Assembly: GCA_021806345.1 (NCBI GenBank)
Contig: JAJZXP010000411.1
Coordinates: 1-19,782 of the forward strand
Reading direction: 5' to 3'
DNA length: 19,782 nt
Source: Thermoplasmata archaeon
Lineage (GTDB): Archaea; Thermoplasmatota; Thermoplasmata; Thermoplasmatales; Thermoplasmataceae
Positions 101 to 14,526 of this stretch are shown piece by piece. The translations under genes and the position numbers were made by a program. The notes beneath the pieces were generated by a model that was given only the letters and a program-made list of their open reading frames with translations, did not search any database and was not told where the DNA came from. The first letter of the stretch is position 1. Every line of letters begins with the position of its first letter.

Positions 101-108
101 GTATATAA
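101..108 (-). promoter_or_regulatory. TATA box for the leaderless gene starting at 80
   Basis: On the minus strand this reads TTATATAC, centred about 25 nt upstream of the ATG at 80. That is the usual TATA to start distance for a leaderless archaeal transcript. The assignment depends on the partial gene being real. Confidence 0.4.
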
Positions 109-170
109 TAATATTTATAAATGAAGGGTAATTTTATTAATTTTAGGTAACAATATTCCAGTATATTCAG

Positions 171-245: not shown

Positions 246-264
246 GTAGGTTAATTTAACGATT

Positions 265-273
265 AAATTTAAG
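265..273 (-). promoter_or_regulatory. TATA box of the tRNA-Arg gene
   Basis: The minus strand reads CTTAAATTT, centred about 24 nt before the tRNA 5' end, which is the expected box A position for an archaeal tRNA gene. Confidence 0.55.
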
Positions 274-557
274 CATTTCGCATAAATGAGGTCGTAAATT
301 TTTAGTAGAAATATTTTCAAAGCGTATAAAGAAGATTCACGGAGATTATAAAGAAAAAATTTTTTTATCATCCTGATTACCCAGCGTTAACAAGGCAAAC
401 AATATTAAATGTCATAATTTTTACTTATGGAAAATTGTTCATGAATAGATTCAAGGCATCCTACTTATGTCACAAATCATCAAGATATATTCGACGGTCT
501 CGTATAACTATCAAAAAATACCATAATTAGAAATATAAGAAAGTATTATAATTATTT
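274..557. other. A/T-rich intergenic region, no gene seen
   Basis: This is the upstream side of the tRNA. Both strands are full of stops and only peptides of about 15 codons are open. I see no repeat array, tRNA or clear structured RNA. It separates the tRNA from the transposase-like remnant and the restriction operon. Confidence 0.5.
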
Positions 558-779
558 ATGGTAGTATCAAGCACATCCCTAATGGGAAGGCTTAACAAAT
601 GTAATGAAGGTGCTGTAAGAACGGTGTTGAGGCAGGCGCATGTGGAAGTGGAAAGTCTTAAGAAATCTTATCTTGTAAAATTCATTAAGAAAAACATAGG
701 AAGATGCTGCAAAATTAAATTACAAATATTATTATATAATCAACTCTATGTAATGGCAGTGTTTAGAAAGAGGCTTTGA
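558..779 (+). pseudogene. Possible C-terminal remnant of an IS110-family transposase
   Basis: A 73-residue open frame shows a pattern resembling the C-terminal Transposase_20 region of IS110-type enzymes: a glycine-rich opening (MGRLNKCNEGAVRTVLRQA), a central LKKSYLVKFIKKNIG like the 'L..fY.....kg' stretch, and a C-terminal hydrophobic helix where such proteins have 'A.vA.arkll...y'. The catalytic RuvC-like N-terminal half is absent. No ribosome binding site is evident. The match rests on remembered family pattern, not an alignment, so this could also be a chance ORF lying in the mod leader region. The mod promoter at 731-740 lies inside it, so it is unlikely to be a working gene. Confidence 0.3.
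731..740 (+). promoter_or_regulatory. TATA box of the mod-res operon
   Basis: ATTATATAAT here would place the transcript start near 760, giving a leader of about 40 nt. The leader contains GGTGAT at 793-798, complementary to the archaeal 16S tail (AUCACC), three bases before the ATG at 802. This Shine-Dalgarno site decides the mod start. Confidence 0.5.
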
Positions 780-801
780 GAAGGCTGTTCTTGGTGATTA
801 A

Positions 802-3303
802 ATGGCTAAAAATGGGAAAAAGAAAGTTGAAGATAACGAGTTGGCACAGTACACTTTTGAAGAGGAAAAGCGACTCAATATACCGCAGACAGGCCTTGTT
901 TCAGCAGAAACAGATCCGATTAATGGGAGGAAAACTTACATGTTTGATCCGCATTTAGACCCTGAATTACAGTGGTCAGGAAAAACTGAAGGAACGAGTT
1001 TTGAAGTTGATACCGTATCTTTGCACGTTCACGAGAGGATTGACCCCCTTACTATAATTGAAGCTGTTAGAAACAAAGATCCTCACGCACAGAGTAGTCT
1101 TTACTATTTCGATAACCCAGAAAACAACCTGCCTATCCGGGAAGCAATAGAATTTTACAAACACTCAGAGGGATGGTCAAACAGGTTAATCGCAGGCGAT
1201 TCACTAATTGTGATGAATTCCTTATTGGAGAAAGAGGGCATGGCTGGAAAGGTTCAGATGATATACATTGACCCACCTTATGGAATCAAGTACGGCTCAA
1301 ATTTCCAGCCTTTCATCAATAAGAAAGACGTTAGAGATGGAAAAGACAATGACTTGACTCAAGAACCAGAGATGATCAAGGCATTCCGTGACACTTGGGA
1401 ACTTGGGATTCACTCATATCTCACGTATCTAAGGGATAGACTTCTTTTAACTAGAAATTTACTCACCGAAAGCGGAAGCGTCTTTGTTCAGATATCTGAC
1501 GAAAATATACATCATGTTAAAGAAATAATGGCTGAAGTCTTTGGAAATGAGAATTTTGTTAGTATCATAAGTTTTGCTACAACAAGCGGATTTGAATCTA
1601 AAACCATATCTAGAGCTGGTGATTACATTGTATGGTTTGCTAGAAATAAAGAAAAAGTAAAATTCCATCAATTATATTATCTAAAAACTGAAGATACAAG
1701 AGGGTACAACAGAATTGAGTTACAAGATGGAACTCGACGAACACTTACTAATAAAGAAAGAGAAGATCTAAAATTACTCCCCAAAGGCTCAAAACTTTAT
1801 TCGTCTGGGGCATTGTTTAGTGCAGGATCTGGTCAAGAAAGAGTTCCCTTTGAATATTCGAGACAAAAATTTTATCCCCCTGTAGGTGCACATTGGAAAA
1901 CGACTATAGAAGGACTTAACTTATTAGCAAAGAAAAATAGAATTGAAATTGCAGGAAATACCCTAAGATATGTAAGATACCTGGAAGATTTTACTGCTGT
2001 CGCATACAATAATTTATGGAAGGATACGCAAACATTTATAGAGAAAATATTCGTTGTTCAAACAAATCCAGAGATTGTAAAAAGATGCGTTCTTATGACA
2101 ACTGACCCTGGTGATATAGTTTTTGATCCTACATGTGGTTCCGGTACAACGGCATATGCTGCCGAACAATGGGGAAGAAGATGGATAACTTGTGACACTT
2201 CACGCGTTTCCATCACATTGGCAAAACAAAGATTGATGGCTTCAATTTTTGATTTTTATGAATTGGCACATATAGGTGAAGGGGTCTCAAGTGGTTTTAA
2301 GTATGAAAAAATCCCACATATTACCCTTGGGTCTATTGCAAATGAAGAGCCTCCTGCAGAAGAAATACTTTATGATCGGCCTATAATTGACCGTTCGAAG
2401 AAGAGAGTCACAGGTCCATTTACCGTTGAAGCAGTACCTTCGCAGCGTGTAGTAAATCTAGAAGATATTGATGAAACTTCCAGTGGTCAGGATCCGGATA
2501 ACACAATCGCTCGGTCTGGGGAAACTATCAGGCAGAGCGATTGGATAGATGAATTGAGCAAGACTGGCATTAGGGCAAAAGGCGGGCAGATCATTAAGTT
2601 CGCAAGGATTGAACCTTTACAAGGCACAAAATGGTTACAGGCAGATGGAGAAACAAATGATGGCCAAAAAGCAGTAATTTCGTTCGGACCCGCATATGCA
2701 CCTCTGGAGCAAAGACAGGTTGAATTGGGCATTGAAGAGGCTCAACAGATTGTACCAAAGCCAAAACTCGTTATATTCGCTTCATTCCAGTTTGACCCCG
2801 AAGCTTCAAAGGATATTGACGAACTAAAATGGCCTGGCATAACAATAATCAAATGCCAGATGAACACTGATCTCTTGACTGAGGACTTGAAGAGGAAAAA
2901 AGCAAACGAAGAATCCTCATTTTGGCTGATCGGTCAGCCTGATATTGAATTAAAGAAGCAAGGCGAGGAGTACTTCGTGACAGTAAATGGTTTTGATTAT
3001 TACGACACCAGAACCGGAGAAATAAAATCCGGAAACGCCTCAAATATAGCGATGTGGGAACTGGACACAGACTACAACGGTAGGAGTCTTTACCCCAGGC
3101 AGGTATTCTTCCCTCTTGGGGGCGAGAATGGTGGATGGAGTAGGCTTGCCAAAGCACTTCATGCATATATAGATGAGGACTTGATTTCCAGTTATGCTGG
3201 TAATAGATCATTGCCTTTCAAAGCTGGGAAGAACAAGCAGATTGCGGTGAAAATCATAGACGATCGTGGCATAGAGTCTCTGAGGGTTCTGAAGGTGGAT
3301 TAA
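802..3303 (+). CDS. mod: Type III restriction-modification system methylation subunit (Mod)
   Basis: This 833-residue DNA N6-adenine methyltransferase would pair with Res to modify one strand of an asymmetric site and to supply target recognition for cleavage. The motif order is beta-class, as expected for Mod: catalytic DPPYG at residues 157-161 (motif IV), then a long recognition region, then FDPTCGSGTT at 441-450 (motif I, SAM binding). Residues around 100-130 (FYKHSEGWSNRLIAGDSL starts just after) fit the family lead-in to the methylase core. The C-terminal third is long and probably contacts Res. The start at 802 is preceded by GGTGAT. The stop overlaps the res start as TAATG, so the two genes are translationally coupled. 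Nucleotides about 1560-2100, the target-recognition part, are clearly more A/T-rich than both flanks, suggesting replacement of this domain by recombination. Confidence 0.93.
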   Translation: MAKNGKKKVEDNELAQYTFEEEKRLNIPQTGLVSAETDPINGRKTYMFDPHLDPELQWSGKTEGTSFEVDTVSLHVHERIDPLTIIEAVRNKDPHAQSSLYYFDNPENNLPIREAIEFYKHSEGWSNRLIAGDSLIVMNSLLEKEGMAGKVQMIYIDPPYGIKYGSNFQPFINKKDVRDGKDNDLTQEPEMIKAFRDTWELGIHSYLTYLRDRLLLTRNLLTESGSVFVQISDENIHHVKEIMAEVFGNENFVSIISFATTSGFESKTISRAGDYIVWFARNKEKVKFHQLYYLKTEDTRGYNRIELQDGTRRTLTNKEREDLKLLPKGSKLYSSGALFSAGSGQERVPFEYSRQKFYPPVGAHWKTTIEGLNLLAKKNRIEIAGNTLRYVRYLEDFTAVAYNNLWKDTQTFIEKIFVVQTNPEIVKRCVLMTTDPGDIVFDPTCGSGTTAYAAEQWGRRWITCDTSRVSITLAKQRLMASIFDFYELAHIGEGVSSGFKYEKIPHITLGSIANEEPPAEEILYDRPIIDRSKKRVTGPFTVEAVPSQRVVNLEDIDETSSGQDPDNTIARSGETIRQSDWIDELSKTGIRAKGGQIIKFARIEPLQGTKWLQADGETNDGQKAVISFGPAYAPLEQRQVELGIEEAQQIVPKPKLVIFASFQFDPEASKDIDELKWPGITIIKCQMNTDLLTEDLKRKKANEESSFWLIGQPDIELKKQGEEYFVTVNGFDYYDTRTGEIKSGNASNIAMWELDTDYNGRSLYPRQVFFPLGGENGGWSRLAKALHAYIDEDLISSYAGNRSLPFKAGKNKQIAVKIIDDRGIESLRVLKVD

Positions 3304-6098
3304 TGGCTGATGACAAGAAGATACAGCATCTAATAATCAACAGTCCCTATGAAAAGCCTAACAAGCATCTCAAGTACAATCGGGATGATCGGAAATTTGA
3401 GTTGGTTCCCGTGAGAAGACCAGCAGGATATACGATAGCTTCTGAACATTCAGAAAAGTTTGACGACCCTGGATTCTTTGTTGAGCTTCCGGAAGTGAAC
3501 AAGATCAGGGAACGCGTAGACAAATGGAGAGGATCAGGATATCCTGGAATAACAAAAGTTACCAAGGAGCTACTGGATTACTGGAAGAGACCAGATAGAG
3601 ACCAGAAGCTCTTCTTCTGCCAACTGGAGGCAATTGAAACCCTGATCTGGTTAATAGAAGCACCTGAAACTGAGAAACAGGGTATAAAGCTGGGGGGCGA
3701 TGGTGGCAGCATAGAACGTTTGTGCTCAAAAATGGCCACTGGAACCGGAAAAACGGTCGTCATGGCTATGCTCATAGCTTGGCAGATCATCAACAAGATG
3801 ACTTACAGGCAGGATACCAGGTTTTCCAAGGACGTTCTTGTAGTCTCACCTGGATTGACGGTAAGAAACAGGCTTCAGGTCCTTAATCCCTCAGCACCAG
3901 AAGAAAGTAACTACTACGTGGAATTTGACCTGATTCCTTCCGGAATGTGGGACAAGCTCCGAGGAGGACGAGTCAAAATCATAAACTGGCACCTTCTGGA
4001 ATGGGAGACTGAAGACCAGGTCAAGAGGAAGAAAAGTGTCGACAAGCGTGGCGTAAAAAGCGATGAAGCTTATGCCAGAGAGGTACTTGGCGAAATGAGA
4101 GATGCCAAGAATCTCATTGTAATAAACGACGAGGCACACCATGCGTGGAGAATCAACCCGGAAGCACTCGGAAAATATGTTAGACAGAGAGACCTCAAAG
4201 ATAGTGCCAAAGAAAGCACTGTGTGGGTTGGAGGTCTTGATAAGATCAATAAGGTGAGAAACATCATGCGATGTTTTGATTTCACTGCCACACCATTCTT
4301 TCCCTCAGGAAAGAAAGCCAGCGAGGAGTCGCTGTTCGGATGGATAGTAAGCGATTTTGGTCTTAACGAGGCAATTGAATCTGGCTTGGTAAAGACTCCA
4401 AGAGTCGTTGTTCGTGACGATGGCACACCGGATGCCAAGACAATGAAATCAAAGTTTTATCACATATACGTAGATGCAGCGGTAAAACAAGATATTAACC
4501 GAGCTGTAGGCAAAGAAATAGCGCTTCCAGATCTTGTCACAAAGGCATACTATTTCCTGGGCTTGGATTGGGCAGAAACACTGAAATTATGGGAAGGAAG
4601 TAAAGCAGAAACCCCGCCAGTGATGATATCTGTGTGCAACAGAACCGAGACTGCAGCACGCGTAAAATTCACGCTGGATAAAGGAAAGATCAGGATCAAA
4701 GAGTTGCAAAATCCAGATGTTACTCTTCAGATAGATACGAAAGTGCTCAATGAGGCCGAATCAGGTATCAATGGTAATAACGGTGCCTCCAAGAAGAGCG
4801 TTGCCGAAGAGTTGAGAGAAAAAGTTGATACAGTTGGGCAGAAAGGGCAGCCTGGAGAAAGAATTCAGAACGTCATTTCTGTTGGAATGCTCTCCGAGGG
4901 ATGGGACGCAAAGACAGTTACGCACATAATGGGCCTGAGAGCATTCACAAGCCAACTTCTTTGTGAGCAAGTGGTGGGAAGAGGCCTGAGACGTACTTCA
5001 TATGATGTGAACGAGGAAACTGGTCTCTTCGAACCGGAATATGTCAACGTGTTTGGCGTACCATTCACTTTCTTGCCGCATGAGGGAGAGGGAGTTGGAT
5101 CAGAAGGTGGCATTCCTCCACCACCTCCAACACCCAAGACAAGGATACACGTTGAAGAAGATAAGCGAGAATTTGAGATTTCCTGGCCTAATGTCCTGAG
5201 AATCAATCATACGTACACTCCGAAGTTGAACATAGATCTTGAAAATGTCCAGGAACTACAACTCAATCCGGAAGACACACCGCTTAAGGCAGAGCTGGCA
5301 CAGATAATTGAGGGAAAACCAGATATCACGAAGAAACTCAAGATTATTGATCTCTCAAACAGCCAGGTTGAGAAGTTACTCACCAGCCTGAGAAAACAGA
5401 GATTGATCTTTGAAACGGCAAGAGACGTTTTCGATCAGATGCAGCCATCTTGGCCAGGCAGTAAGGAGTATCTCATAGCCCAGTTGATCAGAATTGTTGA
5501 AAAATTTCTGAACTCCGATAAGCTTGTGATCCAAAGTGAATCGTACAGAGAGGATCTGAAGAAGCGGCTGCTTATCCTATTGAATCTCAACAAGATTGTC
5601 CAGCACCTGTTCAGCGCCATCCGAGCAGAGAACACAGAGAAACTTGCCCCGATCTTTGACAAGGAGATGCCCATAAAGTCAACAGGAAAAATGGTCACAT
5701 GGTACACAAGCAAACCATGTGAACTAACCAACAAATCCCACATCAGCCATGTCGTATACGACAGCACATGGGAAGCATCTGAATCGTACGAGTTGGAAAA
5801 CAATGATTTCGTGGTGAGTTGGGCGAAGAACGACCATTTGGGTTTCGTTATAAGTTACCTCTACAAAGGAGTTGTTCACAGTTTCTACCCCGACTTCCTG
5901 ATTAAACTCAATAACGGAAAGACCCTTGTGCTTGAAGTAAAAGGAGTGGATAACGAAATGAACCGGACAAAGAGATCAGCACTCAAAGAATGGATAAATG
6001 CTATAAATTCGGATGGTAGATTTGGAAAGTGGGAATCAGACGTGTCCTTCATGCCATCAGACATCAAGGATATATTAAAAAGGCACCTGGCGAGCTAG
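3303..6098 (+). CDS. res: Type III restriction endonuclease subunit (Res), DEAD/DEAH helicase-nuclease
   Basis: This 931-residue protein has the complete Res architecture. The SF2 helicase core shows ATGTGKT at residues 145-151 (Walker A), DEAH at 276-279 (Walker B), DFTATPFF (motif III), and SEGWDAKTVTHIMGLRA followed by QVVGRGLRR (motifs V and VI). The C-terminal nuclease carries a PD-(D/E)XK site: PD at 863-864 in FYPDFLI, then EVK at 878-880 in LVLEVKG. Known family members translocate or slide on DNA using ATP and cut when two head-to-head sites meet, only in complex with Mod. The ATG overlaps the mod stop by one base. All key residues are present and the length is normal, so the system should be active. 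A disrupted toxin gene starts one base after its stop. Confidence 0.94.
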   Translation: MADDKKIQHLIINSPYEKPNKHLKYNRDDRKFELVPVRRPAGYTIASEHSEKFDDPGFFVELPEVNKIRERVDKWRGSGYPGITKVTKELLDYWKRPDRDQKLFFCQLEAIETLIWLIEAPETEKQGIKLGGDGGSIERLCSKMATGTGKTVVMAMLIAWQIINKMTYRQDTRFSKDVLVVSPGLTVRNRLQVLNPSAPEESNYYVEFDLIPSGMWDKLRGGRVKIINWHLLEWETEDQVKRKKSVDKRGVKSDEAYAREVLGEMRDAKNLIVINDEAHHAWRINPEALGKYVRQRDLKDSAKESTVWVGGLDKINKVRNIMRCFDFTATPFFPSGKKASEESLFGWIVSDFGLNEAIESGLVKTPRVVVRDDGTPDAKTMKSKFYHIYVDAAVKQDINRAVGKEIALPDLVTKAYYFLGLDWAETLKLWEGSKAETPPVMISVCNRTETAARVKFTLDKGKIRIKELQNPDVTLQIDTKVLNEAESGINGNNGASKKSVAEELREKVDTVGQKGQPGERIQNVISVGMLSEGWDAKTVTHIMGLRAFTSQLLCEQVVGRGLRRTSYDVNEETGLFEPEYVNVFGVPFTFLPHEGEGVGSEGGIPPPPPTPKTRIHVEEDKREFEISWPNVLRINHTYTPKLNIDLENVQELQLNPEDTPLKAELAQIIEGKPDITKKLKIIDLSNSQVEKLLTSLRKQRLIFETARDVFDQMQPSWPGSKEYLIAQLIRIVEKFLNSDKLVIQSESYREDLKKRLLILLNLNKIVQHLFSAIRAENTEKLAPIFDKEMPIKSTGKMVTWYTSKPCELTNKSHISHVVYDSTWEASESYELENNDFVVSWAKNDHLGFVISYLYKGVVHSFYPDFLIKLNNGKTLVLEVKGVDNEMNRTKRSALKEWINAINSDGRFGKWESDVSFMPSDIKDILKRHLAS

Positions 6099-6346
6099 AT
6101 GTTCCACATTGTTGAATCCACACAGAAGAATTCGAAAAGGAATTCTCCAAGAATCACAGGGATAAGAAAGAGTGGCTTCAACGTATGGCCAAGAGACAGG
6201 GGCAGGGGCCCCAGATAGGAAAGTCTCACGGACTATGGTGGTTAAGAATAGGTTCCTTCAGAATCTGGTATGAGATAAATGAGGAAGAAAAAGTGGTAAC
6301 TCTCAGTGCAATTCTTCACAAGGACGAGGTCAAGAAGTACTATTAG
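6099..6346 (+). pseudogene. RelE/ParE-type toxin gene, frameshifted near the N-terminus
   Basis: The ATG at 6099 follows the res stop directly and opens MFHIVEST. Then a CACACA run at 6119-6124 shifts the frame. Removing one CA unit restores a single frame of 81 codons continuing EEFEKEFSKNHRDKKEW and later GLWWLRIGSFRIWYEI and ILHKDEVKKYY, ending at 6346. The 'LW.LRIG.FRI.YEI' block and the terminal 'HKDEVYxxY'-like segment are typical of RelE/ParE toxins, whose usual length (80-90 aa) is matched. In the present sequence the first frame ends after 39 residues and the toxin frame has no good start, so the toxin appears inactive unless the shift is a sequencing error or is bypassed by slippage. 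Its stop overlaps the stop of the convergent antitoxin-like gene. Confidence 0.75.
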
Positions 6347-6528
6347 GGCTCCTTTAGGAAGTCTCTAACGTTCCTTACTCTTCCTTTCTGTATGTTCTCT
6401 TCACTCCTTTTCAATTGATCCATGACATACTCATTCTCAAGAGTCTCTATGGTAGCCTCAAGGCCATCGAGATCGGACTTAGGAATGCTTACAAGTCTGG
6501 TTTTTGCAGTGGTCATTGCTATACTCAT
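6343..6528 (-). CDS. Putative antitoxin of RelB/Phd type, convergent with the toxin
   Basis: This 61-residue acidic/basic protein has the C-terminal signature seen in RelB/Phd/YefM antitoxins: a helix 'ETLENEYVMDQLKRSEENI' followed by QKGRVRNVRDFLKEP (the toxin-wrapping tail). The N-terminal part, MTTAKTRLVSIPKSDLDGL, could be a short dimerisation/DNA-contact segment. ATGs exist at 6528 and 6516; a T/A-rich element about 15-25 nt upstream and no Shine-Dalgarno suggest a leaderless transcript, favouring 6528. It faces the RelE-like frame and the two share four bases at their stops, so it is not in the usual antitoxin-toxin operon order. Function is inferred from sequence pattern and neighbour. 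Confidence 0.65.
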   Translation of the reverse strand: MSIAMTTAKTRLVSIPKSDLDGLEATIETLENEYVMDQLKRSEENIQKGRVRNVRDFLKEP

Positions 6529-6559
6529 ATCTTTATAGATTTTAATATCTTTCGGTATG

Positions 6560-6970
6560 CTACGACTCTAATTCATTCCCATCCCCTTTAGTATCTTTTA
6601 AGCTTTTTCGTTTCTTGCAGCCAAAATAATCGGCCTTATTTCTTGAATCAATCATTCTTCCTAGGTCAATTTCTGCTATGTTCAACTTTCTGGCCCAAAC
6701 AATTTTGTTCTCACAAATCCAGTAATGAGATTTGCACGGAAATCTCCAGTTGCCTATTGAAGGGTATAACGAGACAGATTCTCTATTCCAAATAAGTGTC
6801 CAGTCTGTTGGTTTAATGGGTGTTACAACAATTTCACCGCAGCCAGAAGGACACTTATGCATCGCAGTCCTGTAACGAATTGATACGTACAATATACCTT
6901 CTTTTACGTCTTCGGGAATGAACTCGACGAATTTAGGTCTGATTTTCCTTTGTTTCTTCATGGTGATCAT
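6560..6970 (-). CDS. DUF6527-like cysteine-containing protein of a ubiquitin-like operon
   Basis: This 136-residue protein matches my recollection of the DUF6527 family: an opening KFVEFIPEDVKEGILYVS, then HKCPSGCGEIVVTP, SVSLYPSIGNWRFPC and SHYWICENKIVW. The conserved Cys40, Cys44, Cys79, His82 (and Cys86) could form a zinc site. DUF6527 genes are found beside multi-ubiquitin and DUF6791-ThiF genes in bacteria, and the biochemical role is unknown. It could be a ligase-like or substrate-recognition partner, but that is guesswork. The gene overlaps the 3' end of the E1-like gene by 38 nt, implying translational coupling. ATGs at 6970 and 6961 are both possible. The basic, charged tail after about residue 105 looks unstructured. 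Confidence 0.75.
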   Translation of the reverse strand: MITMKKQRKIRPKFVEFIPEDVKEGILYVSIRYRTAMHKCPSGCGEIVVTPIKPTDWTLIWNRESVSLYPSIGNWRFPCKSHYWICENKIVWARKLNIAEIDLGRMIDSRNKADYFGCKKRKSLKDTKGDGNELES

Positions 6971-8135
6971 CGTTTGTTATAACATTAGTGATAATGCCGT
7001 AGGTTGTGTTATATTCCTTTTCCGCATCAAAGTAAAAACCTGATAATTTCTTCCATTTAATAACTGCCAGAGCCGCATTCAAGGCATTTATGTCGGCTAT
7101 CTGTATGTTATGTGAATATTCATTGTTTCCTTCGTCTGAAAAGCCGATGCGTTTAGATATGTGCCCATGAAAATCAAGGGTACAGGTTGTTACTTGTGCG
7201 TTGCCACCCAAAACATCATTATCATTGTACATCCCGATACCCACATCTATGAAAGGTATCTTTCTTTCAGTAAGAAAGTCAACTATAGTTTTCTTTTTTG
7301 CTCCTTCCATACATAGAAATACAAAGTTCATGTCGCCAAGGTCACCAACGGTTTCTTCATCGACTAAATGAGCGTGTGGAAATATGTTATGCCTCATCTT
7401 GGAGTAAATCTCAGCAAACCACTCAACCTTGCGCACCCTTTTTTCAAGGTCCTCAATGGAAGGAGCTCCAGGAGAACGGAAGGCATTATGTTGAAGGAAA
7501 AGATCTCCGTCGAATAGATGAATCTCATTCACTGGAGTCTTGGCTAGTAAATCCAGTACGTATGCACCCGTTCCCCCCAGTCCTACAATAGCAATTTTAC
7601 CATTCTTTAGCTTCACATTAGCTGCAGAAACACCGGCACGACTAGATGCGGTATCCATATAGCAGAAAACAGACCGTTCTTCCTCAGGTTTAGTCACCAG
7701 AAAAGTCCTAGCCGTTGCGTTAGGGTCAATAGCATGAGCGTGTCCTTCGAGTATCCTAACATAAGTTGTCATCTTCTCGTAATAATCATTATATCCAGCT
7801 GGGATCGGTTTCTGAGAAAATGAGAAAGTTGCAATGAGTCCCTCGTGTATCTTCTCGTTCTTATTCTGCTCGTTGACTAATGTCGAAATCCGAACTCCCT
7901 TTGAATCGCACGGGAAAGAGCCGGTCCACAAAGCAACGTGATTATCCGGTTTCGCGGTCCTATCGCCTGCGAGAACGAGAGTTGAAATCAGTATTCCATA
8001 CGCAACTTGTCTCTGATCGTTCACATAAGGTACGTGATTGACCAAAAGATATGTATTTTCCACACTTATATCGTAACCCTCATCTCTGAGTTGTTTCAGG
8101 TCTGGACTACGACTTATCAGTACTGGTGACATCAA
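6933..8135 (-). CDS. E1-like ThiF-family adenylyltransferase with DUF6791-like N-terminal domain
   Basis: Expected role: use ATP to adenylate the C-terminus of the ubiquitin-like protein encoded just upstream and pass it on, possibly through a thioester. The 400-residue protein has two parts. Residues about 1-170 resemble DUF6791 (HVALWTGSFPCDSKG, later YYEKMTTYVRILEGHA, and CYMDTASSRAG). Residues about 175-360 are a ThiF/E1 Rossmann domain with GLGGTG at 185-190, HLFDGD at 206-211 (ATP/Mg contacts) and HNAFRSPGAP, in which N217 and R220 are the expected conserved pair. Cys275 and Cys318 are candidates for a catalytic cysteine; C318 in VTTCTLDF is nearer the usual position. The structural CxxC zinc pairs of MoeB/ThiF are absent. 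It overlaps both neighbours. The start could be 8135 or 8132. Confidence 0.85.
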   Translation of the reverse strand: MMSPVLISRSPDLKQLRDEGYDISVENTYLLVNHVPYVNDQRQVAYGILISTLVLAGDRTAKPDNHVALWTGSFPCDSKGVRISTLVNEQNKNEKIHEGLIATFSFSQKPIPAGYNDYYEKMTTYVRILEGHAHAIDPNATARTFLVTKPEEERSVFCYMDTASSRAGVSAANVKLKNGKIAIVGLGGTGAYVLDLLAKTPVNEIHLFDGDLFLQHNAFRSPGAPSIEDLEKRVRKVEWFAEIYSKMRHNIFPHAHLVDEETVGDLGDMNFVFLCMEGAKKKTIVDFLTERKIPFIDVGIGMYNDNDVLGGNAQVTTCTLDFHGHISKRIGFSDEGNNEYSHNIQIADINALNAALAVIKWKKLSGFYFDAEKEYNTTYGIITNVITNDDHHEETKENQT

Positions 8136-8484
8136 AAATCATGCCGCTCTTGATTGTTACTGTCTCTCCTTCAACTAAAGTTCCCTCACGGTGATCTTTC
8201 AGACCGTGGCTATACTGCACTGTGAATATTTTAGTAGGCTTATGAGGCGGCGGAAATGCCAGATCAACTACTTGCGTATAACTAATACTGTCTTCATCCC
8301 AAGCGTTGCCGGCAAAACTGGTGAAAACTAGGACTTTAGGGCGAGAAAGCGAAGTGGGCCGCGAAGCATGGGAAGAAATAAAATTAGACAAGATTATGGC
8401 AAACACTGGTGAAGTGATAAACACACCATTAGGAGCGATATTGAAGACAAGCAACAAGTTAATCAAACAAATGGTATGGGGCAT
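8107..8484 (-). CDS. Ubiquitin-like protein of the multi-ubiquitin type, single domain
   Basis: The last 75 or so residues look like one repeat of the multi-ubiquitin family: strand KVLVFTSFAGNAW, then SISYTQVVDLAFPPP, IFTVQY, EGTLVEGETVTIKSGMIF and the ending DVTSTDKS. There is no C-terminal Gly-Gly. Bacterial relatives often carry several tandem copies; only one is encoded here. The start is uncertain. ATG 8484 has GAGG eight bases upstream and gives 125 residues, but its first 40 residues are hydrophobic (ICLINLLLVFNI). A TTG at 8391 gives 94 residues with a short polar tail before the fold. The 3' end overlaps the E1-like start by 29 nt. Its job is inferred from this coupling: the substrate of the E1-like enzyme. 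Confidence 0.75.
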   Translation of the reverse strand: MPHTICLINLLLVFNIAPNGVFITSPVFAIILSNFISSHASRPTSLSRPKVLVFTSFAGNAWDEDSISYTQVVDLAFPPPHKPTKIFTVQYSHGLKDHREGTLVEGETVTIKSGMIFDVTSTDKS

Positions 8485-8552
8485 TTTTAACGCCTCATAT
8501 TTTTTTGAAATCGCTGTTGCATGTGTTTGCTGAGTCCAAACTTGGAACCCGT

Positions 8553-8561
8553 TATTATAAA
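8553..8561 (-). promoter_or_regulatory. TATA box before the ubiquitin-like/E1 operon
   Basis: The minus strand reads TTTATAATA just after the stop of the nuclease-like gene. Transcription would begin near 8530, about 47 nt before the SD-linked ATG at 8484. It suggests that the ubl-E1-DUF6527 genes have a promoter of their own even though the nuclease gene lies upstream on the same strand. Confidence 0.4.
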
Positions 8562-8574
8562 TCTGCCTTTAAAT

Positions 8575-9429
8575 TTAGGAGTTTATGTTCCCTTCAAGGA
8601 GATTATTTTTCACCTGATCATAATTCGGGTTATCTCGCACATAATCTGCCCCAATTTTCCACAAATAACCGTACCTTGAAAAATATAAACCAATATTTTC
8701 AATTTTGGGGAAACTCCTATCCCTGTGGTGCGCCTCGTCAGCAAGCATTAGGTAACCCACCAACTGGGACCATAAATATTCATCTAGCTTCATTTCCTTG
8801 GTGGTCTTAATGTCGATCATTGTGTTATCCATAATGAGATCAACATCCGCTCCACCCACTATTCCCGAAACCTCCCCAAAATTTGGATCAAGCAAAATAT
8901 TTGTTGCTGAGTTCTTAAATTCATTTGGAGTCAGATTGTAAAGGGCTCTCATATCCTCTATATCAAGAGGATCCACATTTCTATCTATATCATCATAGAA
9001 TCCTGCCCTAAAGATCACATCCATTCGTGCGAATTTGATAGTCGTTTCCAAAAAGCTGTTCTTGAGAATTCCATCCGCAATAAATGCAGCACGCGCCTCA
9101 CGATACTTTTTTGCTACGGATACCATAGAGAAGAGTTCCTTTTCACCTATTCTCTGATTCTTAGCTTGATAGTAGCCTTCCGCCATAATGTGTCCTTGCA
9201 CCTTAGCCATGCTCGCTTCTGCCACAAATTCAGTTTCCATTGACTCAGGATGAACACGCTTGAGTTCAGAACGGAGAAGGTAATCGAAGGCCGTTCCCAT
9301 GAGAGAGAAGTTTTTGGTTTTTGGGCAGGCTACGCAATTCTGTGAGGGTTTGAACTTATCACGTGGAATGGGAATATTAGCGGTCACAATCTTTGAGAAA
9401 CCACCTTTCATTATTGATGTCAGGCTCAT
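8575..9429 (-). CDS. PD-(D/E)XK nuclease-like protein upstream of the ubiquitin-like genes
   Basis: This 284-residue protein carries a RecB-type nuclease signature: an N-terminal MGTAFDYLLR (residues 44-53, like the 'G..fH..le' helix), GGADVDLI with D195/D197, MIDIKTT with D206 and K208, and SQLVGYLML giving the QxxxY motif at Q222-Y226. These are the metal-binding and catalytic residues of Cas4/AddB-like nucleases. Only two cysteines (C32, C35) are present, so a Cas4-like iron-sulfur cluster is unlikely; the CVACP pair may bind metal with another partner. The start is firm: GGAGGA at 9435-9440, five bases before the ATG at 9429, with a TATA element at 9474-9482. Placement suggests a DNA-acting effector linked to the conjugation genes, but it may only be a neighbour. 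Confidence 0.7.
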   Translation of the reverse strand: MSLTSIMKGGFSKIVTANIPIPRDKFKPSQNCVACPKTKNFSLMGTAFDYLLRSELKRVHPESMETEFVAEASMAKVQGHIMAEGYYQAKNQRIGEKELFSMVSVAKKYREARAAFIADGILKNSFLETTIKFARMDVIFRAGFYDDIDRNVDPLDIEDMRALYNLTPNEFKNSATNILLDPNFGEVSGIVGGADVDLIMDNTMIDIKTTKEMKLDEYLWSQLVGYLMLADEAHHRDRSFPKIENIGLYFSRYGYLWKIGADYVRDNPNYDQVKNNLLEGNINS

Positions 9430-9473
9430 AAGAATCCTCCAAACGGCTCGGTAATAAATGCTATGAATTCAAA

Positions 9474-9482
9474 GTATTTAAA
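9474..9482 (-). promoter_or_regulatory. TATA box of the nuclease-like gene
   Basis: The minus strand reads TTTAAATAC. A transcript starting near 9450 would carry the GGAGGA Shine-Dalgarno site at 9435-9440. The element is part of a divergent promoter region shared with the ParB-like gene. Confidence 0.5.
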
Positions 9483-9556
9483 CAAGCTGGTAGTTCTCTA
9501 GTTGAAAAATCTCTTTACCATATGTTTCTAAACCGATGTGTACTTGCAAACCAACC

Positions 9557-9566
9557 CTTAAATAAT
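9557..9566 (+). promoter_or_regulatory. TATA box setting a leaderless start for the ParB-like gene
   Basis: CTTAAATAAT is centred about 25 nt before the ATG at 9586. Because no Shine-Dalgarno site precedes that ATG, the spacing supports a leaderless transcript beginning at or next to it, rather than the upstream in-frame ATGs at 9565 and 9568, which lie at or just after the box. Confidence 0.55.
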
Positions 9567-9585
9567 GATGCCACAATGTACTTTT

Positions 9586-10353
9586 ATGGAAGTCAAAGAT
9601 ATTGAAATGTCAAAAATAGTTGTATCTAAGCAGAATGCCAGAAAAGACCTGAGCGCCGGTAACGAGGAGGCAAATTTAGATGATTTAGCCAATAGTATCA
9701 AGGAAAAAGGCATGCTTAGCCCCATAACAGTAGTTCAAAAGGGAGACCTATACGAATTGATCGTAGGTCAGAGAAGATATCTTGCTTGCAAGAGACTGGG
9801 CTATCAGAAAATCGCAGCAATAATAAGGGATGAAACGGATGACACAGATTATCTTGCAATATCATTGATCGAGAATATCCATCGATCCGACATGTCTCCA
9901 ATAGATAAGGCGAGGGCTTACCACTCTTTGTTTGACAAGTACAGCGACTATGACAGGGTTTCAAAGGAAACGGGAGTATCTACTGCAACAATTAGGAAGT
10001 ATGTGAAACTGCTCGATCTCGCTCCTCAGTTACAAGACAGACTCAGCACTTCGGAAGGTGTCGTAGGAATTGATGCAATGTCCCGTTTGTCATCAACCTT
10101 TAACTCTACAGAAGATCAACTCAAAGTTTTCGACAGTGTTAGAGGTTTTACTGGGAAGATGCAGGCGGAAATCATCAAGAGGAGTGACGGCGATATTTCT
10201 AAAGTACCAGAACTTGTCGAGCGAGCAATGCAGGGAGAGTTTAACGTTTCAATGTGCCATTTCGGCTTCTGTGATCATATGTCAGATAAGCTTAAAGAAA
10301 AGATTGGTGGACTCCTTGAACAGGGAAAAAGTCTTGACCAATTGTTGGCATAG
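9586..10353 (+). CDS. ParB/Spo0J-family protein (ParB nuclease-fold domain plus HTH)
   Basis: The 255-residue protein has the ParB N-terminal fold: SKIVVSKQNARKDL, LANSIKEKGMLSPITVV, the GQRRYLACKRLG box, and LIENIHRSDMSPIDKARAY (the ParB box preceding the HTH). The HTH follows in RVSKETGVSTATIRKYVKLL. Family members bind parS-like sites and, in chromosome partitioning ParBs, bind CTP through the N-terminal fold; others are nucleases or transcription regulators. There is no ParA gene beside it, so it is an orphan and a regulatory role is possible. The C-terminal part has an unusual MCHFGFCDH cluster that might bind metal. It is divergent from the nuclease/ubiquitin-like genes with only 156 nt between, so it may control them. 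I chose start 9586 from promoter spacing; longer starts at 9565 and 9568 are unlikely. Confidence 0.85.
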   Translation: MEVKDIEMSKIVVSKQNARKDLSAGNEEANLDDLANSIKEKGMLSPITVVQKGDLYELIVGQRRYLACKRLGYQKIAAIIRDETDDTDYLAISLIENIHRSDMSPIDKARAYHSLFDKYSDYDRVSKETGVSTATIRKYVKLLDLAPQLQDRLSTSEGVVGIDAMSRLSSTFNSTEDQLKVFDSVRGFTGKMQAEIIKRSDGDISKVPELVERAMQGEFNVSMCHFGFCDHMSDKLKEKIGGLLEQGKSLDQLLA

Positions 10354-10424
10354 TTTCGGTCAGTTTTCCCTTAAACTATTAATCAAATGTTTTTTATTGT
10401 GCCACTCTTTATATTCTTCTGACG

Positions 10425-11141
10425 ATGCAGCCGAAGTATCAGGAGCTCCTTGAGTATGACGATGTAAGGAGATGGTTCGAGAATCTTAAGGCGAGGTCTA
10501 TTTTTACAGCAACAGTGGCATTAATAAATCTAGGCACTATTGTGCGCTTACCACCATGAGCCCTAAGTGAATTCTGAACAAGGCCCGGTAAAACGATAAG
10601 AATTTTAGATACGAATTCATCGATTTTGTAAGTAAACTGGATTAAGAGGGCAATGTTGGACATGCATAGTGATATTCAAGAAGATTATTCTCTTCTAGTT
10701 GAAGTTTAACGATATCCATTTGTAGTTAACCGTTGACATAGACGGTGAAAACGAAACACCGACAATCGTTAATGAAAGGATACCAAGCAAAGAGGAATTA
10801 GCCAGAATACTCAGGAAAACTACGTCAAGAGGCGAGGTAGCTATTACGATAATGATATTCTCAGGCCTAAGACCGGAATCTTTGGGAGATTACGAAGGAA
10901 CAGACGGCCTCAGGCTTGGTGAATATCCAATGAAATCCAGTTCGACAAGACGCCTCTTGCAGACATGAACAACGATAATTTCCAGAAGCTCCGAGGGAAT
11001 AAGGTTGCAGGAGCAATGGCAAGTAACGGTTCAAAGCAGAGATCTGTTCCAATGAATGAGATAGAAAAACTCCTCGGCAAAAGCTATGAATTCCAGATAG
11101 TACTGCCCAACGGCAAGACTATTATGAAAATGCCATTTTGA
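10425..11141 (+). pseudogene. Archaeal tyrosine integrase, heavily decayed
   Basis: Pieces of one integrase appear in order but in different frames. The N-terminus (MQPKYQELLEYDDVRRWFENL) runs from 10425 to a stop at 10557-10559. A second piece in another frame has stops inside it, with traces like NFRYEFIDFVSKLD at about 10600-10640. The core, 10726-10968, contains NERIPSKEELARIL and the catalytic-arginine region FSGLRPESLGDYEGTDGLRLG. A C-terminal piece ends at 11141 with MASNGSKQRSVPMNEIEKLL and LPNGKTIMKMPF. The part that should carry the H-x-x-R and the nucleophilic tyrosine is missing between the core and C-terminal pieces. The enzyme cannot work. It marks the former presence of an integrated element; no att repeat is visible within the window. 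Confidence 0.75.
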
Positions 11142-11160
11142 TTATTGAAATATCATAGTT

Positions 11161-11170
11161 AAGTATATAT
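11161..11170 (+). promoter_or_regulatory. TATA box of the VOC gene
   Basis: AAGTATATAT lies about 50 nt upstream of the ATG at 11218. A transcript from near 11192 would include GAAGGA at 11207-11212, a fair Shine-Dalgarno site. Confidence 0.45.
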
Positions 11171-11217
11171 ATGCAATTTTAATTTTGCTTTAATAACAAA
11201 GATACCGAAGGATAGAA

Positions 11218-11625
11218 ATGAGATTTAACGGAATGATAAATCATGTTGAAATCAATGTTTCAAATCTTTCTGATTCAAGGAAATTTTGGTCACTTTTCTT
11301 GAGTGAGTTAGGTTACGAGGAATATCAAGACTGGGAATATGGTTTCAGCTTCATCAAGGAAGGCACATACGTAGTATTTGTACAAACTTCTGAAAATTAT
11401 CTCAATCTGACATACCATAGATCCGGCACAGGCCTTAATCACATTGCCTTCTTCGTTGATGGCAGCGATAAAGTGGATTACTTCCGCAGGTTGATCAAGG
11501 ATTTCGGCCTGAATGAATTATATACTGACAAATATCCTTATGCCGGAGGAGAGGAAAATTATACACTGTTTTTTGAAGACCCTGACAGGATTAAGGTTGA
11601 AGTGACATGGAAACCTGATTTGTGA
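11218..11625 (+). CDS. VOC superfamily (glyoxalase/dioxygenase fold) protein
   Basis: This 135-residue protein has the paired beta-alpha-beta-beta-beta layout of the VOC fold. It opens with MINHVEINVSNL, where His9 is in the usual first metal-ligand position. The second half begins GLNHIAFFVDGSDKVDYF with a His in the second-module position, and ends FFEDPDRIKVEVTW, where the Glu of KVEV is the normal last ligand. Metal binding is therefore plausible, but the substrate cannot be told: VOC proteins include glyoxalase I, antibiotic-resistance and dioxygenase enzymes. It has its own promoter and a GAAGGA ribosome site. It stands alone among pseudogenes and looks intact. Confidence 0.85.
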   Translation: MRFNGMINHVEINVSNLSDSRKFWSLFLSELGYEEYQDWEYGFSFIKEGTYVVFVQTSENYLNLTYHRSGTGLNHIAFFVDGSDKVDYFRRLIKDFGLNELYTDKYPYAGGEENYTLFFEDPDRIKVEVTWKPDL

Positions 11626-11738
11626 AATTACACAGGATGAATTTGAAGAGCTTAATGACATAGCAGGATCCTTTTCAAGCAACAGCCAAGACATGTCAGA
11701 ACAAGCTAATTTTGGCGGTCTGGTTGTGATTCATATAG

Positions 11739-11948
11739 TCCATGGAATTAACCCATGCATTCTGGCTCAACATCATAGAAACATTCTTCAGCAAGACTGC
11801 AAGATCAATGCTGAGGGGAATACGGGTGAATTCAAAGGAAGAATTGAAAGATAGGATGCTTCAATACATAAACGGGACAAACGAAGAGCCCGTCGTATTC
11901 ACATGGAAATACAAAATGGATGAGATTCCGGGAGGAATAAAAGTGTAG
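11739..11948 (+). pseudogene. IS630-family transposase, C-terminal fragment
   Basis: The peptide from the ATG at 11742 reads MELTHAFWLNIIETFFSK, then ARSMLRGIRV, SKEELKDRM and EPVVFTWKYK. This is the last part of an IS630/DDE transposase, including the 'THa.WLN..E..FS' helix that carries the final catalytic glutamate. The N-terminal HTH and the first two catalytic aspartates are missing and an in-frame stop (11736-11738) lies just upstream. The 110 nt between the VOC stop and this fragment hold an open but unrecognised frame (for example ITQDEFEELNDIAGSF), perhaps another gene scrap. Confidence 0.8.
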
Positions 11949-11972
11949 TGTTGTAAGTGTATTAAGGAAACA

Positions 11973-12107
11973 TTATACTAGAACGATATTTTTTATATTG
12001 TTCTTCGATGATGTAATCATATCGACAGCGAGTTGGATGTCTACCTGCTTTTGTTCACGACTGTATTGAGAAGTGCTGTTCTGCCAGATCCGATGTTTTC
12101 TATACAT
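11973..12107 (-). pseudogene. NYN (LabA/DUF88) RNase-domain remnant
   Basis: A 44-residue minus-strand frame contains REQKQVDIQLAVDMI, the signature of the central part of NYN ribonuclease domains ('kg.Dv.LavD..'), where the aspartates bind metal. It then runs NNIKNIVLV and stops exactly where family members continue with SGDSDF. The preceding residues do not look like a normal NYN N-terminus. This is a scrap of a gene cut on both sides. The 110-residue-plus domain cannot fold from this piece. Confidence 0.55.
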
Positions 12108-12124
12108 GAGGAGTCTTAAGATAT

Positions 12125-12149
12125 AGAAACACTTCCTTCCTGTGTTTCT
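12125..12149. repeat. Inverted repeat (8-bp stem, 9-nt loop)
   Basis: AGAAACAC at 12125-12132 pairs with GTGTTTCT at 12142-12149 around a pyrimidine-rich loop. It sits in the 184-nt gap between the NYN remnant and the nuclease gene, where no gene is seen. It could be a transcript end or the trace of an insertion-sequence end. Confidence 0.4.
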
Positions 12150-12291
12150 TTATGAATTTTATAAAATATCACATTATTTTATTCTCTCAGTACATATGTT
12201 AGATCATGTACTTCATTGTATCAGTGTTCTCTTTTTCACTCTTTCCTTCTATCGTTCTTAATATGACAACTAGGGGAAAATATATTATTTA

Positions 12292-13950
12292 TCAATGACC
12301 GTATTTATCTCTCAATGAATTGTAAACAACCTCCAACAAGAGTAAGTCGTACCTATTCTTTTTCTTTATTTCGTTCAATATTTCCTTTTGTTTTCTTGAA
12401 TCATTCGCTGCCAAGCGATATTCCTCCACCAAACTTACAATATCTATTTGTTTTGGTGAGATTTCATTAAATAGTTTTGGAGATAAAGCACCAGCAACAT
12501 CGTATAACTTTTTTGTATTAGTTCTCAGTGATAATCCTCTTAAAATGATACGAGAAACATCTACTTCATTGCTAACGAAATTCTTTTCTTCTTCCTGCTC
12601 GTTTTCACTAAATAGGTTATTTATGAAGTTTTTATCAGTATTTCCATACGCAGCAAAAATGGCTCCTTCTGTTAATTTACTTTTAACAAAATCAAGGACT
12701 TTATTCCTCTGAGAATCGTCAAATTGTATTATTTCTCCTTTATTCAAAAATCCATATAGTATGGGATCCTTATCTATGAACTCTATGTCGTAAAAAATAA
12801 AGTTTTCTCGAAGAATTTGGTTTAATAAATTTCTGTTTACATACGTTTCACCATTACTAATAGCCCATTTACAAAGGGCTTGTTCAAATATAACTTTGGA
12901 TAGGCCATTTTGTATATTTGGAACTGTTTTCTTTAGTAATGTAATGTTAACATCTTTTGCACTTTTTGCACCCATTTCATATATTTTCACTATATTTGAT
13001 AAGGAAAAACCAAAGATACGTAGCTCAGACAAGTCCTTGAATGAATTCGCAAAATCTTCGCCATATTCGTTAAAAGCATTTTCAATATATTTGTAGGAGC
13101 TTTGTCCCCATATTTCATCTTTGGACATGCTTAATAGAAGGTTAGACTTCTTGTAGAATTGTAACTGTAATTTAACTGCTTCGCTTATGTCTTTTAGTGC
13201 TTTTGAATAATCTGTCTCTCCTTCCGTAGTAAAGCGTTTATCTCTGCAGTAAAAGACACATCTCCATTTTTTTACTCCCAATAATGCAGCGTAAATATTA
13301 GCTTGTGTTTCTTTTGCTTCTTGTATACCTCTTTTTACAACAAAGTTACTCGTTCTATTTCTGTTTGTAACCTCTATCACACCAATATCATCGGAAACAC
13401 CGTCAGGAAAACCAACTAATATAATCAGTAAATCTTCAGTAATACCAAGTGTTATATTAGTAAAAATAGCAACAATGCCTAAACTTAAACTTCCTTTGGT
13501 TTCTTTTAACTCTAATTCTTTCCACTGAGGTAATCCTATTGGATTTATATTTTCATAGTTTATTCTTCCTAAGTTCTGTATTCCTATTACTTTTTCATCA
13601 GGATGTATAAATTCTAATGATGATTTGCTATCATCTAACACATCTATAGCACGCATAAAGTATCCTCGTTCTGTTTTTGCCTGAGAGTATGGCGCATATT
13701 CTCTATTCTCTTTCACAAGACCAATATCTGCACAGCCAAGTGTTATAAAATGAGGTTTTCTTTTCATATATTGGTCTATACTCTTAAAATCCAGTAAAAT
13801 CGATTTTACTAGATATTTAGCTTTGTTGCAATTGATCCTTGGACTATTTAATAAGTCCCAATCCTGATCTTCAAAGGCTACTATATTAAAAACAGAATCC
13901 TTACCAGTATGTAAGTCGACAAACTGAATTTTTCTCCCTGTTTGTTTCAT
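12292..13950 (-). CDS. RecB-like nuclease fused to HhH and RNase H-like exonuclease domain (TM0106/YprB type)
   Basis: The 552 residues fit the plan of TM0106-like predicted nucleases. Residues about 170-235 look like a RecB-type PD-(D/E)XK core: FPDGVSDDIG with D183, VIEVTN with E193, and TQANIYAALLG giving QxxxY at Q216-Y220. The lysine normally following the Glu (E-x-K) is Thr195, so this site may be weak or inactive. Residues about 305-350 resemble a helix-hairpin-helix part. The C-terminal domain shows a DEDD exonuclease order: FIFYDIEF with D388 and E390, AAYGNTDKNFI with D439, and NRYDLLLLEVV with D535. Such proteins are thought to process nucleic acids in repair or defence. Coding is A/T-rich (about 30-35% GC in hand-counted lines), lower than the restriction genes. 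No clear Shine-Dalgarno site precedes ATG 13950. Confidence 0.6.
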   Translation of the reverse strand: MKQTGRKIQFVDLHTGKDSVFNIVAFEDQDWDLLNSPRINCNKAKYLVKSILLDFKSIDQYMKRKPHFITLGCADIGLVKENREYAPYSQAKTERGYFMRAIDVLDDSKSSLEFIHPDEKVIGIQNLGRINYENINPIGLPQWKELELKETKGSLSLGIVAIFTNITLGITEDLLIILVGFPDGVSDDIGVIEVTNRNRTSNFVVKRGIQEAKETQANIYAALLGVKKWRCVFYCRDKRFTTEGETDYSKALKDISEAVKLQLQFYKKSNLLLSMSKDEIWGQSSYKYIENAFNEYGEDFANSFKDLSELRIFGFSLSNIVKIYEMGAKSAKDVNITLLKKTVPNIQNGLSKVIFEQALCKWAISNGETYVNRNLLNQILRENFIFYDIEFIDKDPILYGFLNKGEIIQFDDSQRNKVLDFVKSKLTEGAIFAAYGNTDKNFINNLFSENEQEEEKNFVSNEVDVSRIILRGLSLRTNTKKLYDVAGALSPKLFNEISPKQIDIVSLVEEYRLAANDSRKQKEILNEIKKKNRYDLLLLEVVYNSLRDKYGH

Positions 13951-14006
13951 ACGTTTCTACCAATACTTAAACATAATCTGGTAGTTATTAGTTTCTATAT
14001 TATTTT

Positions 14007-14186
14007 ATGATCCATGACTCTAAAGAACACAAGGAAACGTCTAGGATCTTTCGTGAGGTTTCGCAAAACTTACGCATACAGTTAATATATTTTGAAAAAT
14101 GGTCTCTGTATAGTTCGTTTTTTTGCTCAGCTGATCGGGAACTTAATGCAACAGCTAGGAAATTAGGTATTGAAACTGTACTATAA
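14007..14186 (+). pseudogene. PIN-domain (VapC-like) C-terminal remnant
   Basis: A 59-codon frame from ATG 14007 ends FFCSADRELNATARKLGIETVL. This is the usual last strand-helix-strand of PIN toxins, in which the aspartate of 'SAD.eL' is a metal ligand. The rest (MIHDSKEHKETSRIF) does not carry the expected N-terminal 'DTs' aspartate, and at 59 residues it is under half of a normal VapC. The middle of the domain must be deleted. No antitoxin gene is beside it. It is best read as a dead toxin scrap in the gap between the nuclease and the CARF gene. Confidence 0.5.
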
Positions 14187-14357
14187 GTATCATGATGTGC
14201 TTTTATTTTGCACTCATGAAGCTTCAGATTATGAATAAGTATCGATATTCGCCGTTGATCTGCTTCCTTTATTCATTAGACAGTTATAAAAGAGATAATA
14301 TATATGGAGATGGATCAGAGAGTATCTTGATAGATCCCAATGAAAGAGGTAAAGAAT

Positions 14358-14486
14358 ATGCTTGGTAAATTCACCATTGAAGAAAAGGAACAGATTGTCT
14401 TTGAATCATTCACTGCAATGAATATTCCAAGATCCACAATATATCACAAGAGAAGTGAATTAACATACACTAGTAAACTGTCCTGA
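14358..14486 (+). pseudogene. Short HTH transposase-like fragment
   Basis: A 42-codon frame, MLGKFTIEEKEQIVFESF then AMNIPRSTIYHKRSEL, resembles the N-terminal HTH of IS3/IS481-like transposases, in which 'R.t.Y...' closes the recognition helix, but it appears to have lost residues in the middle. GAGGT lies seven bases before ATG 14358, favouring it over an ATG at 14340, and TATA-like sequence lies near 14283-14303. With no catalytic domain it is a scrap, though a tiny regulator cannot be excluded. Confidence 0.4.
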
Positions 14487-14526
14487 TTCCAGAAGTCAAG
14501 TCTACCGTTATGATATCGTCTAAATC

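Follow-up and report, generated by a model that had tools for sequence, protein, structure and literature searches.

Does an archaeon possess a ubiquitin-like conjugation pathway of a bacterial kind, and how might such a pathway work? The question is raised by three overlapping minus-strand genes at 6560-8484 of contig JAJZXP010000411.1 (assembly GCA_021806345.1, a Thermoplasmata archaeon), positions 1 to 19,782 of which, 19,782 nucleotides (nt) in all, form the window analysed here. They encode a ubiquitin-like protein (Ubl), an enzyme joining a DUF6791 domain to a ThiF-type activating (E1) domain, and a DUF6527 protein. Our reading, to which we give a probability of roughly 0.6, is that the bacterial Bub (bacterial ubiquitination-like) pathway has a compact sister without JAB, that this cassette represents the sister's archaeal branch, and that it works by the mechanism proposed below. 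The parts of the cassette and of its immediate surroundings, with open reading frame abbreviated to ORF, amino acids to aa and hidden Markov model to HMM, are as follows.

8107..8307, minus strand: recognisable part of the Ubl (Multi_ubiq), ORF residues 60-125, ending ...FDVTSTDKS (Pfam and family HMM).
8308..8484, minus strand: upstream half of the ORF assigned to the Ubl, which probably does not encode Ubl; no BLASTP match, antisense-like codon scores.
8306..8533, plus strand: coding-like fragment (codon score) abutting the truncated Ubl; parent gene not found.
8107..8132, minus strand: 26-nt overlap of Ubl and E1, the E1 start codon lying within the last Ubl codons.
6933..8132, minus strand: DUF6791-ThiF enzyme of 399 aa, a predicted conjugating-enzyme-like (E2-like) domain plus E1 domain (Pfam, NCBIfam, AlphaFold2).
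7635..8132, minus strand: DUF6791 domain, predicted ubiquitin-conjugating (UBC) fold, closest to BubB; holds C75 (codon 7908-7910).
6963..7622, minus strand: ThiF/E1 adenylation domain; ATP-site residues conserved, Y339 (codon 7116-7118) invariant.
6560..6970, minus strand: DUF6527 protein, a predicted metal-binding, cysteine/histidine-rich partner (PF20137, 2e-22); probable start 6961.

All matches to the three products lie far above chance. Pfam recovered Multi_ubiq (PF14452, 1.7e-11) in the product of ORF 8107-8484, DUF6791 (5.6e-56) and ThiF (1.4e-9) in the enzyme and DUF6527 in the third protein, in agreement with a preliminary description that had named the trio from the letters alone. 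That description began the E1 at TTG 8135; the start is ATG 8132, because the closest homologues are 399 aa long. The DUF6527 gene probably starts at ATG 6961, giving 133 aa. Among NCBIfam models the enzyme matches PRK06153.1-4 with 530.8 bits (cut-off 352), against 22.8 bits for ThiF (cut-off 275.25) and 19.7 bits for MoeB (cut-off 266), and thus does not belong with the MoeB/ThiF group. Neither of the two results that the preliminary description had named as counting against it, a missing Multi_ubiq match or an E1 grouping with MoeB/ThiF, was therefore obtained.

The trio recurs widely. A database search with the E1 scored at least 7,999 candidates, at least 7,992 of them at an E-value below 0.001, and all 120 best matches listed among these relatives carry DUF6791. 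When one genome was scanned for each species, 420 relatives emerged; the 80 best of them supplied the set of loci compared below. The Ubl gene precedes the E1 gene in 79/80 loci and DUF6527 follows in 79/80, both exceptions being contig ends (L064 begins inside the E1, L079 ends soon after it). Three loci have an insert before DUF6527: in L017 it holds frames that by eye resemble an IS3-type transposase, and in the Bacteroidota loci L053 (2443-4404) and L069 (10175-12232) an anti-phage dCTP deaminase stands between E1 and DUF6527 (PADLOC dCTPase, 3e-121 and 2e-122). In 78 of 79 loci the E1 start codon (ATG 77, GTG 1) is placed so that the gene shares exactly 26 nt with the Ubl, and the relative frame of the two genes is identical in all 79; the Ubl ORFs measure 88 to 276 aa. 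The system is sporadic. Of 200 genomes from the phylum to which locus L001 belongs, 3 have it (two, G001 and G004, were already in the scan of 420 relatives), and in the class of a Pseudohongiella 13 of 369 genomes, the Pseudohongiella genome included, have a Multi_ubiq match above cut-off. Among 72,556 plasmid records 115 also carry the E1, and 45 of these come from Acinetobacter; many of the 40 records listed are annotated 'multiubiquitin', some also 'DUF6527', and at least one is a Klebsiella pneumoniae plasmid.

The last residue of the Ubl is serine in 79/79 loci, usually within T-D-K-S and always followed directly by the stop codon. Likewise 73 of 76 database Ubl rows, window included, end in serine, and the exceptions (P0193, P0195 and P0196) have unrelated last residues. 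The serine codon is TCN in all 79 loci, its T being the third position for the E1 frame, and the overlapping E1 residue is Arg in 51, His in 16, Leu in 11 and Pro in one; therefore, with a constant serine codon and a variable shared E1 residue, the Ubl frame is under constraint. Lysine or arginine precedes the serine in 76/79 loci. The 222-aa protein of PDB entry 9cd2, titled 'ZDHYS365 multi-ubiquitin domain protein', matches the family profile (7e-22) over residues 143-222 only and also ends in ...TDKS. Standalone Ubls of other operons end variously, six beside a JAB-E1 in G (4) or A (2) and one beside another E1 type in S, with no common motif. The C-terminal glycine of ThiS-, MoaD- and ubiquitin-type modifiers is thus not a feature of this Ubl. 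This bears on whether the pair could be a sulphur carrier with its activator (MoaD/ThiS with MoeB/ThiF), serving cofactor synthesis or tRNA thiolation. The adenylation fold is shared with those pairs, but the enzyme falls far below the ThiF and MoeB cut-offs, the Ubl ends in serine, and the scanned neighbours are restriction or other defence-type genes, not cofactor genes. We rejected this highly improbable reading on the family scores and the serine end.

The absence of a JAB protease, stated in the preliminary description, held up: a search for a JAB motif pattern in the 10,177 stop-to-stop frames within 4 kb of the E1 in related loci returned 2 matches, both chance-like. Applied to the other operon type, the pattern picked out 8 of 10 E1 frames; the two misses have no JAB in the E1 frame. 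Separately, Ubl operons L124 and L122 have E1 and JAB (recognised by eye) in separate frames, a third arrangement.

What, then, is DUF6791? AlphaFold2 modelled the 399-aa enzyme with a predicted local distance difference test score of 89. By structural alignment the predicted DUF6791 model matches UBC (E2-like) folds, BubB first, which lends support at the level of predicted fold to the earlier suggestion that this domain stands in for an E2. Its position N-terminal to ThiF, the place of JAB in the sister E1 proteins, and its conserved polar residues could also befit a protease-like JAB replacement that matures or removes the Ubl. Such a role is very unlikely given the UBC-like model and a Ubl that has no cleavable extension, because the stop directly follows the serine in every locus. 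The domain as an analogue of JAB was rejected on fold; JAB is also missing from the 50 matches listed, which in itself excludes nothing.

We compared candidate active-site residues across the 80 loci. The ATP-site residues G184, G186, G187, D208, D210, N216, R219 and K235, which we take to be equivalent to residues of MoeB and ThiF, are kept in 80/80, and D276 and R313 in 78/80 each. C75 of DUF6791 is cysteine in 77/80, within a G-[ED]-[HY]-P-C type motif that resembles the HPC motif of Atg3. A catalytic pair proposed earlier, C275 and C318, fared worse: in the 399-aa numbering C274 is cysteine in 66/80 and C317 in 3/80, and we rejected both as obligate catalytic residues on conservation. At position 157 cysteine is outside the five commonest residues. 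Y339 is invariant in 200/200 rows, JAB-E1 proteins have a conserved tyrosine before their last helices (8/8 rows), and a Y370F variant of BubCD appears in the title of a PDB entry. That these three tyrosines correspond is our guess from position, the profile alignment having stopped short. In DUF6527, H35, C37, C39, C41, C76 and H79 are conserved in 79/79 loci (the window has Ser at 39), and the protein is probably zinc-binding.

How would such parts work together? The ThiF domain would bind ATP and adenylate the C-terminal serine of the Ubl, as its conserved adenylation residues suggest. The acyl-Ubl may then pass to, or be positioned by, the fused DUF6791, whose predicted fold is E2-like, with C75 as the best candidate acceptor or, alternatively, Tyr 339, which is invariant in the E1 domain. 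The Ubl would be joined to protein targets via its seryl carboxyl group, and DUF6527 might recruit targets or complete the transfer site. From its context, the operon would belong to mobile defence or stress islands. That bacteria and archaea share a pathway in which a single E2-E1 chain activates a serine-ending modifier and joins it via the seryl carboxyl is a tentative proposal, at slightly less than even odds. With Lys or Arg before the serine, trypsin would therefore leave a lone seryl remnant (+87.03 Da, from residue mass) on modified lysines. To our knowledge such a mark would fall outside routine proteomics searches. Should activation take place at the serine end, the modifier would break the glycine rule that holds for its ubiquitin-like kin, and a direct mass-spectrometric test would become possible, also in existing proteomes.

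Several observations weigh against this reading. Foldseek alone gave no significant match for DUF6791 (best E 0.76), a DUF6791 profile search of the PDB found nothing convincing (best E 0.046, a serine recombinase), and the profile did not match seven BubB-like sequences (probability ~1%); it is therefore the structural alignment of a predicted model that carries the E2 assignment. Moreover, the window enzyme has Glu at D276 and Gln at R313, C75 is not cysteine in 3/80 loci, acyl donors do not usually end in serine and the window's own Ubl is incomplete. The mechanism beyond sequence and fold is inferred, and activity is a prediction for every member.

A further reading is that the enzyme activates the Ubl without protein conjugation, through an MccB-like C-terminal modification (a nucleotide or small-molecule adduct), or that the Ubl is an assembling sensor regulated by the E1/E2-like chain. 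MccB acts on the C terminus of a peptide. In the fold search of the E1 its Z score was 21.3, ~2 units below the 23.5 of the best E1 match, and it matches by sequence at 3e-5. The want of a glycine end and the spread of Ubl ORF lengths point the same way, and Gong and colleagues are said to have found in 2025 that bacterial Ubls form filaments. Against this stand the fusion of an E2-like domain, by fold, to the E1 and the DUF6527 gene that follows in 79/80 loci; therefore transfer fits better than C-terminal capping, and we consider activation without conjugation unlikely.

Is the copy in the window itself intact? The preliminary description took the whole of 8107-8484 as the Ubl frame. Its part from ~8107 to 8307 stands, with the Multi_ubiq match; its upstream half does not. 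The family HMM aligns only positions 18-83 of 83 (~8307 to 8107), the Pfam match begins at profile position 12 of 69, and ORF residues 1-59 gave no BLASTP match among 75 other Ubl database hits at E up to 10. Fifty-nine of those 75 are 82-86 aa long (range 73-119), and no start codon was found in the window Ubl at the family's usual distance. All 14 Ubl sequences inspected have a first strand of the type KFEIIVN, then a conserved Trp; upstream of ~8305 the window Ubl has neither a recognisable start codon nor a recognisable first beta strand. Between 8484 and ~8310 the Ubl frame has codon scores of -0.39 to 0.00; antisense windows have a median of -0.24 and real-gene windows a median of 0.19 (5th percentile -0.01). 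On the plus strand the scores are 0.16 to 0.47 over 8306-8455, like or above the window's real genes, and 0.06-0.14 beyond 8455, within fragment 8306-8533. Since homology ends and codon scores switch at ~8305, ORF 8107-8484 is half Ubl and half something else. For the plus-strand fragment, searches against Pfam, PHROG, phages and plasmids gave nothing significant, and 300 genomes of L001's phylum yielded no match either, an empty result that shows little. No second Ubl was found in the window. An imperfect inverted repeat (8241-8260 and 8480-8499, 20 nt, 80% complementary) brackets the disrupted region; we dropped it as the trace of an inversion because Ubl homology stops at ~8305 and not at the repeat.

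Either the Ubl has suffered a real 5' truncation by rearrangement or the contig is chimeric. With its 5' end unrecognisable, the copy is therefore probably inactive unless the contig is chimeric at ~8305. We think it likely that the window cassette is dead as sequenced or its contig chimeric, in which case little about a working system can be learned from its own anatomy. Some evidence runs the other way. The E1 is not visibly decayed (one departure at 61 near-invariant columns), nor is DUF6527 (one departure in 24 columns, or 2 in 23 in a smaller row set), and the family is intact elsewhere. The same 125-aa ORF is listed in the protein database on two contigs, so that the junction is not confined to one record, though it may be an assembly artefact shared by both. 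The Ubl may also start at TTG 8391 with a strongly changed first strand.

To ask whether the cassette is archaeal by kinship, as had been proposed, we built a quick tree of 91 E1 rows: the window, the 80 loci and 10 of the 120 listed database rows, these ten picked among the window's closest relatives. The root was not inferred. On one side of a branch with a Shimodaira-Hasegawa-like approximate likelihood ratio (SH-aLRT) of 100 stand the window, every one of the five archaeal loci and the ten database rows, which include one protein from Thermoplasmata and one from Nitrososphaerota; on the other side stand the 75 bacterial loci, a split that supports the proposal. Named relatives of the DUF6527 protein include one from Ferroplasma acidiphilum (74%) and one from Nitrosopumilus adriaticus (59%). 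Archaea are known to have SAMP, Urm1 and Asgard-type systems, and the cassette's archaeal branch stands apart from them.

Lastly, we considered the surroundings of the cassette, where the flanking genes are as follows.

802..3303, plus strand: Type III-like DNA methyltransferase, part of a flanking restriction system (PADLOC MTase_III, 1.4e-159).
3303..6098, plus strand: BPTD_3080-family restriction endonuclease of that system (NF046055, 1074 bits, cut-off 800).
8575..9429, minus strand: gene matching a candidate defence family and a defence-associated reverse transcriptase (DRT) nuclease model (PDC-S61 1.7e-9, RTasPDDEXK 5.1e-5, phrog_34041 3.2e-17).

The window also holds a ParB-like gene. 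Across the set, one ORF on each side of the trio was counted, giving 127 ORFs from 70 loci (eight near-identical and two cut loci were left out). Among these 127 nearest neighbours were 11 CapP, 9 CapH, up to 14 RmrA-type and 12 Peptidase_M78 proteins. In the control, 127 of 161 distant ORFs from the same loci, the commonest family had 2 members and the rest at most one, and defence families overall were about equally frequent (194 near, 191 control); therefore the excess lies in regulators of the CapP, CapH, RmrA and M78 type. According to the accessible part of one report, CapH and CapP control adjacent operons, Bub included, upon DNA damage (PMC13373217). Four of the five archaeal loci had enough flank for a scan of ten larger ORFs, made without a control, and all four have a defence-type match near the trio. 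In L001 a Type II enzyme model matches one protein in part; L002 and L003 have IetS, and L003 also a Type I methyltransferase. In L016 (Nitrosotalea devanaterra) the trio has a Hachiman HamB-like helicase (4656-7271) on one side and Type I restriction genes (10582-15488) on the other. Taken together, the flanking restriction genes, the neighbouring regulators and the archaeal neighbours suggest by context the defence role put forward in the preliminary description.

Other features of the window may be recorded beside these. An Argonaute-like protein of 714 aa is encoded at 15229-17373 on the plus strand (PADLOC PprPIWI 4.6e-36, pAgo 1.4e-33); it had no Pfam or PHROG match and no relative in the plasmid collection. 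A 552-aa protein nearby on the opposite strand (12292-13950, minus), a possible partner, had no significant Pfam, NCBIfam, PADLOC or PHROG match. A tRNA-Arg(TCT) gene (170-245) lies near one window edge and a transposase remnant (18468-18935; DDE_Tnp_1 2.9e-7, archaeal ISC1217-type 7.4e-5) near the other; the two are possible borders of a mobile island. In locus L117 a BPTD_3080-family gene (3-863, minus strand; NF046055 1.6e-98, N-terminal part, cut by the locus end), of the same family as 3303-6098 of the window, follows a JAB-type Bub-like operon by ~370 nt.

In summary, the analysis suggests a likely fold, and hence a likely role, for DUF6791, a domain without known function, and shows an archaeal branch of the cassette (Nitrososphaerota, Thermoplasmata) set among defence-type genes. 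The literature searched does not name 'DUF6791', and the matches listed for 'multiubiquitin' or 'DUF6527' do not mention DUF6527. As far as the accessible literature goes, the DUF6791 fold, the serine rule and the archaeal clade are new; the kind of cassette has been known from bacteria since 2006 (PMC1779556). In the accessible part of that paper, Iyer, Burroughs and Aravind describe a bacterial polyUbl operon, type 6e, with a Ubl of one to three domains, an E1 with an N-terminal non-JAB 'domain X' and a C/H metal-binding protein. Domain X was there thought JAB-like, with a protease role speculated; by position and description it would be DUF6791. The present cassette likewise has a Multi_ubiq Ubl adjoining the E1, though the window copy is without its 5' end, DUF6791 in JAB's place and a metal-binding pattern in DUF6527 (C37-x3-C41 ... 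C76-x2-H79). The signature printed in the accessible part of the 2006 paper is C-x3-C-x(35-38)-H-x2-C; DUF6527 differs in its spacing of 34 and in the C/H order of the second pair, and the lineages given there for row 6e are bacterial, whereas the window is archaeal (PMC1779556).

The cassette differs from CBASS (cyclic oligonucleotide-based antiphage signalling system) Cap2 and PADLOC E1-E2 proteins in that the trio has no nucleotidyltransferase partner. With the Bub pathway (BubA, BubB, BubCD; PDB 9ea4-9eav) it shares the order of Multi_ubiq Ubl, E2-like protein (here predicted, of BubB fold), E1 and downstream DUF6527 relative, as well as a conserved tyrosine before the last E1 helices. It differs in that no JAB deconjugase domain is fused to the E1, the E2-like domain being fused there instead, and in the constant serine end of a Ubl whose counterparts beside JAB-E1 are variable. 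Since DUF6791 takes JAB's place and no JAB was found nearby, the cassette is a sister type and not a member of Bub. The trio becomes recognisable as a minimal Ubl-E2-E1 module beside the newly described Bub pathway.

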